From the NCBI GenBank assembly GCA_009659925.1, contig PUXW01000017.1, positions 1-56,561 of the forward strand: a stretch of 56,561 nt of DNA, given 5' to 3'. A model generated the notes under the pieces. That model did no database searches and was not told where the DNA came from. It saw only the letters and a list, made by a program, of their open reading frames with translations. This DNA is from Nitratiruptor sp. (GTDB taxonomy: Bacteria; Campylobacterota; Campylobacteria; Campylobacterales; Nitratiruptoraceae). The translations under genes were made by a program, and so were the position numbers. Of this stretch, positions 50,523-53,017 are shown in pieces (position 1 is the first letter of the stretch; each line of letters opens with the position of its first letter).

Positions 50523-50846
50523 TTAGCAGCTGGGAACATTCCCGCTGTCGCTTGCATACTCGTAAGCAAAATCATAGATATGTTTGAGTTGGGTCTCTTT
50601 GAGATAGCCCTTGCGATACTTGGGGCAGAGCTTCTGGATCTCATCCTCAAATTTCCCCTCTTCGTAGAGCTCTTCCCACTCATCTTGGGTATGTTTGGCC
50701 GCAAATTTGGCCCCGTTGAAACCACAAACCTTCTTGAGCTTCTTCTGGTAGATCTTCTGCCCCTTGCTCGCATCGGCGAAAGCGGCAGTTCCTACCAGAC
50801 CAGCTCCCAGAAGTCCTGTGAGAATGAGTGTCGCGATCTTTTTCAT
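50523..50846 (-). CDS. Cytochrome-like secreted protein without a heme motif
   Basis: A 107-residue protein with a signal peptide (MKKIATLILTGLLGAGLVGT). Its mature part (GQKIYQKKLKKVCGFNGAKF) looks like a cytochrome c start, but there is no CxxCH: cysteines are at 41, 74 and 107 only. The FAAKHTQDEWEELYEEGKFE segment is a pattern I associate with small Campylobacterota cytochrome relatives. The function is unknown. ATG 50846 has a strong GAAGGAGG site. Confidence 0.78.
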   Translation of the reverse strand: MKKIATLILTGLLGAGLVGTAAFADASKGQKIYQKKLKKVCGFNGAKFAAKHTQDEWEELYEEGKFEDEIQKLCPKYRKGYLKETQLKHIYDFAYEYASDSGNVPSC

Positions 50847-50879: not shown

Positions 50880-50914
50880 AGTATAGACAAAAATCGTGAA
50901 CTAATCGTGAACTA
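50880..50914 (-). promoter_or_regulatory. Promoter with PhoB-box-like tandem direct repeat
   Basis: On the minus strand two perfect 11-base repeats (TAGTTCACGAT, 50904-50914 and 50893-50903) precede TATACT (50880-50885) by 7 bases. Read as TTCACGA-TTAG-TTCACGA-TTTT, this is the 7+4 layout of OmpR/PhoB-type boxes that replace the -35. The start would be near 50873. It overlaps the stop of the upstream cytochrome gene and lies downstream of an OmpR-family regulator gene. Confidence 0.6.
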
Positions 50915-51229
50915 GCGGATTCTTCCAATCACCTTGTAGCGGTTCCAGTAGATCTGCAAGAGCAAATCGAGCTCATCCGGATCCACCTGGTGGCGGTATC
51001 CTCGTCTGCGCTCTTTGGGAATCAGGGAGTTTTTGGGATCGGGATTGAGGAGTTGGCGGGCCATCGCCCCCTTGACCAACCGCTCGCTGCTGAAGTGGAG
51101 GAGATAATCGAAGAAGATCGGCTTGAGGGGGAGAGCCACCTCCCTATGGCAGGTGACACAGCGCCGATCGAAGATGGTATCGCTCCAGAGCTGGACCACC
51201 AAAAAAGCTAGGAGGACTATCTGTCCCAT
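50912..51229 (-). CDS. Monoheme cytochrome c-type protein encoded with the sensor kinase
   Basis: A 105-residue protein with a hydrophobic N-terminus (GQIVLLAFLVVQLWS) and heme motif CVTCH (24-28). The remaining part is helical and basic and does not look like a standard class I cytochrome. The start lies 13 bases inside the kinase gene, so the two are translationally coupled. This suggests a redox or heme signal linked to the two-component system, which is inference. Confidence 0.78.
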   Translation of the reverse strand: MGQIVLLAFLVVQLWSDTIFDRRCVTCHREVALPLKPIFFDYLLHFSSERLVKGAMARQLLNPDPKNSLIPKERRRGYRHQVDPDELDLLLQIYWNRYKVIGRIR

Positions 51230-52380
51230 CGCACTTCCACCTTGGTATAGACCCCCTCCTGGGAGTCGATGGCAATCTTCAACCCAAACTCCTTGGCGAT
51301 CATGTAGACGATATGCATCCCAATCCCAAACCCCCCCTCCACCTTACTCAGCCGCTTGTAGCGCTGGAAGATCTCATCAATCCGCTCCTTTGCAATGCCA
51401 ATCCCGCTATCCCGAATCCAAAAACCCCCCTCAAAACTCTTCACTTCGATGCTCCCTCCGACCCGATTGTATTTGATGGCGTTCGAGAGGATATTATCGA
51501 TGAGACGGGCCAACTTCTTCCGATCGGCCCGGAGTCTGGAGGGCCCTAGGTCGAGATGGAAGGTGATCCGCTTGCTCTGGGCCAAAGGTTTGAAGTAATC
51601 GACCCGCTGACCCAAAAGCCGGGCCACGTCGATGGTTTCGATCTTGGAAGGGAGCCGCTCATGGAGGAGGAGGTAGGTGAGATCATCGTAGATGTTGGCT
51701 ATGGTCCGGGCGGCAATTTCGATTCTAGCGATCTTCTTGGCCAGCTTGGGATCGTCGCTCTCGATGGTCTCGATGTTGGTCAAGATGGTGCTCACCGGAG
51801 TGTTGAGCTCATGGGTCGTATCCTTGATGAAGTCGTTCAAGAGGACGATGGAGTTGCGCATCGGACGCAAGAAGAGGGTGACGAGGAAGTAGCCGATCAC
51901 CGCCATGAAGAGGAGGAAGAGGGAGCCGAAAAAGACAATGTTGGCGAAGGCCCGGTGGAGCCAGGCCTCGTCATCGTCGATCTCGATGACCACATATTTG
52001 GCCCCGAGGTAGTAGAGCTCGGGCTCTTTAATGAAGTAGATCTGTTTGCCCTGCTTGTAGAGGACCTTATCAAAGGCGATCTTTTGGGTGCGCAAGAGGG
52101 AGAAGATCTGGACGAAGTCGGCATCGTAGATGGCCGAGCGGAAGTTGGAGTAGCGGGGATAGTAGTTGTCTTCCAAGAGGCTCTCGTGCATCTGACGGAT
52201 CCGGTGGATCACATCCTTGGCATAGTTTTGAAGCTTTGGAAGATGGGCGTTGAGGGCTAACTCCTTCTCGAAGCGGAAGTACATGAAGGAGGCGAGGGAG
52301 AAGATAATGACGGTCAAGAAGATGTAGAGGGTCAAAAAGTAGAAGAGGGAACGGCGCTCACTGGATAAACTTATACCCAT
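51217..52380 (-). CDS. Sensor histidine kinase
   Basis: A 387-residue membrane kinase: transmembrane helices at about 13-35 and 138-160 enclose a periplasmic sensor domain of about 100 residues; no HAMP domain is obvious. The phosphorylated His is in DTTHELNTPVSTI. The ATPase domain has the N box (LIDNILSNAIKYN), G1 (DSGIGIAKERIDEIF) and G2 (GFGIGMHIVYMIA). It overlaps the regulator gene by 23 bases and the cytochrome gene by 13. The ligand is unknown. Confidence 0.9.
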   Translation of the reverse strand: MGISLSSERRSLFYFLTLYIFLTVIIFSLASFMYFRFEKELALNAHLPKLQNYAKDVIHRIRQMHESLLEDNYYPRYSNFRSAIYDADFVQIFSLLRTQKIAFDKVLYKQGKQIYFIKEPELYYLGAKYVVIEIDDDEAWLHRAFANIVFFGSLFLLFMAVIGYFLVTLFLRPMRNSIVLLNDFIKDTTHELNTPVSTILTNIETIESDDPKLAKKIARIEIAARTIANIYDDLTYLLLHERLPSKIETIDVARLLGQRVDYFKPLAQSKRITFHLDLGPSRLRADRKKLARLIDNILSNAIKYNRVGGSIEVKSFEGGFWIRDSGIGIAKERIDEIFQRYKRLSKVEGGFGIGMHIVYMIAKEFGLKIAIDSQEGVYTKVEVRWDR

Positions 52381-53017
52381 AGCGTTTGATACTCTCGATC
52401 CGCTCTTTCCCCAGGTACTTACGCAACTTCTTGATATAGGTGCGCAAAGCCATGTCGCTTGGCCGCTCCCCATACTCCCAGAGGGCGTCGTGGATTCGTT
52501 CGTGGCTTAAGGGTTCATTGGGGTGTTTGAGGAAGAGTTTGAGCAGGGAGCGTTCCTTCTGGTTGAGTGGAACCGCCTCCCCATCCACATACAAACTCTG
52601 ACTCTCCAAATCGAAGTAGCGTCGATCATCGATGACGACCCGCTCCCGCTTGCCAAACTCCCGCTTGAGGAGGGTCTCGATACGCAAGAGCAACTCTTTG
52701 AGGGCAAAGGGCTTGCGGATATAATCGTCACATCCACTCTTAAACCCTCGCTCTAGATTCTCCACGCTATCCAGGGAGGTGATAAAGATGGCCGGGGTAT
52801 CGGTTCGCTCCCTAATCTGGCGCAGGAGCTCAAATCCATCGATTCCGGGGACCATCACATCCAGCAGTAAGAGATCGTAGTTGTGTTCGTAGACCCGCTC
52901 CAGGGCCTCATCCCCCGTGTAGACACTCTCCACCACAAATCCTGCATCCTCCAGATACTCTCGAATCGTCTCGCTCAAGGCCAGATCGTCCTCCAAGAGT
53001 AAAATCTTCCCTTTCAC
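52358..53017 (-). CDS. OmpR-family response regulator
   Basis: A 219-residue regulator: receiver domain with acidic pair Glu9/Asp10, phosphoacceptor Asp53 (LLLDVMVPGIDGFE), the TS pair of IFITSLDS and the Lys of IRKPF, followed by a winged-helix DNA-binding domain ending RIESIKRYGYKFIQ. I start it at GTG 53017 (reads VKGKILLLEDD), with AAAGGAG upstream. It probably acts with the overlapping kinase and may bind the direct repeats at 50890-50911. Confidence 0.93.
   Translation of the reverse strand: MKGKILLLEDDLALSETIREYLEDAGFVVESVYTGDEALERVYEHNYDLLLLDVMVPGIDGFELLRQIRERTDTPAIFITSLDSVENLERGFKSGCDDYIRKPFALKELLLRIETLLKREFGKRERVVIDDRRYFDLESQSLYVDGEAVPLNQKERSLLKLFLKHPNEPLSHERIHDALWEYGERPSDMALRTYIKKLRKYLGKERIESIKRYGYKFIQ

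Follow-up and report, generated by a model that had tools for sequence, protein, structure and literature searches.

PhoB recognizes the Pho box, in which two 7-bp direct repeats (half-site CTGTCAT) are separated by a 4-bp gap and take the place of the −35 element. For DccR, the box is said to follow the consensus WTTCAC-N6-TTCACW, reportedly described by Wosten in 2010; this consensus was not found stated in the literature that we searched. The cre/blr tag of CreB and BlrA, TTCACnnnnnnTTCAC, has TTCAC-N6-TTCAC as its core (PMC4689548, PMC3660660), and we observe the tag at creD of E. coli. In Campylobacter jejuni, Cj1223c and Cj1222c encode DccR and DccS (PMC9449129), Cj1224 is HerB (PMC4257069), and the genes for MacA (Cj0606) and Cj0200c have been linked to DccRS (PMC11365321).

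The stretch of DNA analyzed here (56,561 nt, hereafter the window) contains a direct repeat that matches TTCACnnnnnnTTCAC and is identical to the cre/blr tag in core sequence and spacing. This repeat is very probably the binding site of the neighboring DccR-type response regulator (52358–53017). An earlier note had put forward TTCACGA as a new box, which it is not, because TTCACnnnnnnTTCAC is the published cre/blr tag and a box of this kind is reportedly that of DccR, the counterpart of the regulator by gene context. The window system extends a known kind, described in Campylobacter and E. coli, and what is added here is the extension of the repeat to TTCACRAT, a fixed promoter geometry, and, for vent lineages, another set of targets. 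We reject an assignment of the regulator as CreB, to which it is about 31% identical, from which it stands apart in the tree, and for which it scores 122.5 bits against an NCBIfam cutoff of 273; unlike CreBC, the window system is accompanied by neither creD nor creA. With the Pho box, the repeat shares the 7+4 direct-repeat layout in place of the −35. It is nevertheless not a Pho box, as its half-site is TTCACRAT (TTCACGA in the window) rather than CTGTCAT and the regulator is not a PhoB orthologue.

Genes, repeat and promoter of the locus

On the minus strand, the genes run in the order response regulator, histidine kinase, CYTX, box, P107, and monohaem cytochrome c. The proposed box binder is an OmpR-family, DccR-like protein (PF00072 and PF00486) and is followed by a DccS-like kinase (51217–52380; HisKA, HATPase_c). 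CYTX (50912–51229) encodes a small exported protein with a CVTCH haem motif; its start overlaps the kinase stop, and its own stop codon lies inside the repeat. CYTX neighbors the kinase in almost every one of the 40 orthologous loci. All 40 distinct CYTX homologues contain CxxCH, and the protein may serve the sensor kinase as an accessory haem protein.

The earlier note had described two secreted cytochrome-like genes behind the box. This holds for the second (50498–50196), a monohaem c-type cytochrome with CxxCH (PF00034, E = 1.6e-12), but not for the first, P107 (50846–50523), an exported 107-aa protein in which the CxxCH haem motif is absent from all 38 homologues. Within this family of 38 members, H52/Q54/W57 and C41/C107 are invariant, while the third conserved cysteine, C74, is nearly so. 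The predicted fold of P107 (pLDDT 80.6) matches solely c-type cytochromes, and because all of these matches are weak (Foldseek E of 1.8 or worse; VIA Z of 5.3 or less), we do not claim a cytochrome c fold. P107 is possibly a haem-free cytochrome-c-like protein.

The putative regulator box (50894–50911, minus strand) consists of two TTCACGA heptamers, 50911–50905 and 50900–50894, which are spaced 11 bp apart with TTAG between them. Eight bases (TTTTTGTC) then lead to the −10 hexamer TATACT at 50885–50880, 10 bp past the second TTCAC, and the repeat occupies the position of the −35. Over 50914–50880, the minus strand reads ...CGC TAG TTCACGAT TAG TTCACGAT TTTTGTC TATACT..., in which two copies of TAGTTCACGAT form a perfect 11-bp tandem (50914–50893); the first three bases of this tandem are the stop codon of CYTX, and the first ATG of P107 is at 50846. 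The minus-strand sequence thus bears out the earlier description of a perfect 11-base tandem with a TTCACGA-N4 layout, ending 8 bases before TATACT and replacing the −35. The regulator gene, placed by the same note 1.4 kb upstream on the same strand, is indeed there, at 1.44 kb. TTCACGA-N4-TTCACGA is found as a single exact copy in the window, where 0.29 copies with up to two mismatches are expected by chance from shuffled sequence.

Conservation of the box and rival explanations

We compared the window with 40 further regulator loci from 60 relatives, counting a box where the score against TTCACRAT-N3-TTCACRAT was at least 13/16. A box ahead of a −10 is present in 31/31 loci (window included) with a P107 or cytochrome gene downstream of regulator-kinase-CYTX versus 0/10 regulator loci lacking such a gene downstream, figures that we read as a contrast rather than a formal test, because the 8-bp consensus was derived from these same loci, which are related and hence not independent counts. 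In these loci, conservation of the repeat with the gene set, a check suggested for the proposed link, is what we observe. The observed box score is rarely matched in dinucleotide-shuffled regions. With its 11-bp pitch (one helical turn), TTCACRAT-N3-TTCACRAT lies ahead of P107 and/or the cytochrome whenever these follow the two-component system, and in 30/31 loci a −10 of TATAAT, TACAAT, TATACT, or TAAAAT lies 10 bp after TTCAC. Along the promoter, information content is highest at the two CAC cores, at the AT that extends each of them, and at the −10; other positions carry little.

The box usually travels with the P107 or cytochrome gene when these relocate. In two genomes (G004 and G008), P107 has moved and the box is directly in front of it at the new site, and in a third (G056), the box precedes a displaced cytochrome gene; several second copies of P107 are without a box. 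Among records with organism titles, which overlap partly with the first set of loci, the box is present in 45/45 P107 loci with a regulator upstream and, among P107 loci with sufficiently long sequence but no visible regulator, in 14/23.

Another regulator could bind the box instead, with the neighboring one controlling something else, and the main candidate is a paralogous two-component system in the same genome (G000:C14) that could bind the same box, judging by its recognition helix. That helix, ALRTYIKGLRK, is nearly the same as in the window regulator, and the paralogous kinase is 37% identical to the window kinase. However, the box tracks the window-type locus in every one of the 31 and 45 cases above, and the recognition helix is constant in the window regulator's family together with the box; we consider binding by another regulator instead improbable. 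The paralogous kinase-regulator pair, at about 103.5–106.7 kb of its contig, adjoins a DUF2202 protein.

A reading of the repeat as two DnaA boxes, whose sequence in this phylum includes TTCAC as well, is still less probable, indeed very much so. A pattern search of the whole 1.44-Mb genome returns only four exact TTCAC-N6-TTCAC sites, of which the window box is one and the remaining three are DnaA boxes of one cluster near dnaA/dnaN/ruvC. Those sites read TTATTCACA, whereas the window-type box is TTCACRAT without a preceding TTAT, and where an origin has clustered 9-mers of the TTATTCACA type, the window has a single promoter site, TAGTTCACGAT, at a fixed distance from its −10. As a separate observation, DnaA-box-like TTATTCACA clusters flank dnaA on both sides, between dnaN and ruvC (G000:C11:11000–19500), and this region is the probable chromosome origin.

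Least credible of all is a tandem without regulatory function that arose by chance or remains from slippage where the preceding gene ends. The repeat is a perfect 11-bp tandem abutting a stop codon, but relatives show divergence between the copies beyond TTCACRAT, and the gap between the preceding stop and the box ranges from 0 to more than 40 bp while the distance to the −10 is constant, a conservation that refutes this reading.

Candidate regulon and relation to DccRS

When the box plus −10 pattern was searched with up to two mismatches in 22 genomes of the family, we obtained 61 matches versus 4 for the reversed pattern. The window's own genome has four predicted sites and no control match; besides the window box (C9:50880), these are C3:149419, C5:55015, and C15:14158, so that a search for further sites ahead of −10 boxes, as had been suggested, yields three more predicted ones at this mismatch tolerance. 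A 160-aa glycine-zipper protein (PF05433) is preceded by the box in the 12 genus genomes examined, and other recurrent predicted targets are an exported basic protein of about 100 aa, an exported protein of 170–200 aa, and a YidB-like protein. Across the genus, the box thus recurs before further envelope genes. Given this recurrence, together with the conservation and co-movement of the box, the link proposed in the earlier note, from the neighboring OmpR-family regulator through the box to the downstream genes, appears well supported by sequence. When the 40 orthologous loci were examined for autoregulation through the same box, none had it ahead of the regulator gene. In one Helicobacter-like genome, the regulator gene is itself immediately preceded by a box (G074:C9:61313), which suggests autoregulation through the box in that genome alone.

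To place the regulator, we used a Campylobacter-like genus (g26) recognized by MOMP score and hemerythrin context; a second genus with MOMP matches (g16) was rejected as Campylobacter, its RuvC gene beside DnaA boxes suggesting a Helicobacter-like group. In most genomes of the Campylobacter-like genus, the window regulator has one best relative, with 46–53% identity. This counterpart adjoins a hemerythrin gene in several of the genomes examined and is therefore taken as DccR-like, as Cj1223c lies beside Cj1224. In the tree, the window regulator family joins these hemerythrin-linked regulators, and CreB, PhoB, ArcA, and CpxR of E. coli stand outside this grouping. Two paralogues from the window's genome, one of them the rival candidate with the similar recognition helix, fall at the base with no fixed placement. 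Tree and hemerythrin context together point to the window regulator as an orthologue or relative of DccR, those two basal paralogues being left without a fixed position.

In seven Campylobacter-like genomes, exact TTCAC-N6-TTCAC-N10-TANANT sites start 20–35 nt before an ORF in 23/23 cases among the matches listed. Judged by eye, most of the ORFs behind these 23 sites have a signal peptide or membrane anchor, and they include MacA-like membrane fusion proteins and PepSY-like proteins. The window system resembles DccRS in that its box is a direct repeat of TTCAC-N6-TTCAC placed over the −35, in most cases with 10 bp to the −10 (the DccR consensus being as reportedly described), and in that its predicted targets are exported or membrane proteins. 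It differs from DccRS in the longer repeat, TTCACRAT, in the haem protein gene located after the kinase gene, and in its predicted targets, which are P107, the cytochrome, and the glycine-zipper protein rather than MacA or PepSY-like proteins.

Proposed mechanism and significance

In the mechanism that we propose, the kinase, perhaps aided by the haem protein CYTX, would sense an envelope or redox cue and phosphorylate the regulator. By analogy with the OmpR/PhoB family, the regulator would then bind the box, which overlaps the −35 and spans roughly −38 to −20, as a head-to-tail dimer, and would activate sigma-70 polymerase in the manner of PhoB. P107 and the cytochrome would be made along with the products of the regulon's remaining envelope genes. 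A role for CYTX as the sensory partner of the kinase is speculative. We regard as possible, though rather unlikely as a whole, a broader picture in which the Campylobacterales have retained one regulator-box pair but changed the genes under its control, the targets being the haem-free cytochrome-like protein, the cytochrome, and the glycine-zipper protein in vent lineages, and MacA and PepSY-like proteins in Campylobacter. In this picture, CYTX would sense the periplasmic redox state for the kinase.

The analysis gives a computed DNA-binding motif, a promoter geometry, and a candidate regulon for a two-component system of free-living Campylobacterota. It also links the little-understood DccRS of a major gut pathogen to relatives with haem proteins beside the kinase, and these haem proteins hint at the signal to which DccRS may respond.
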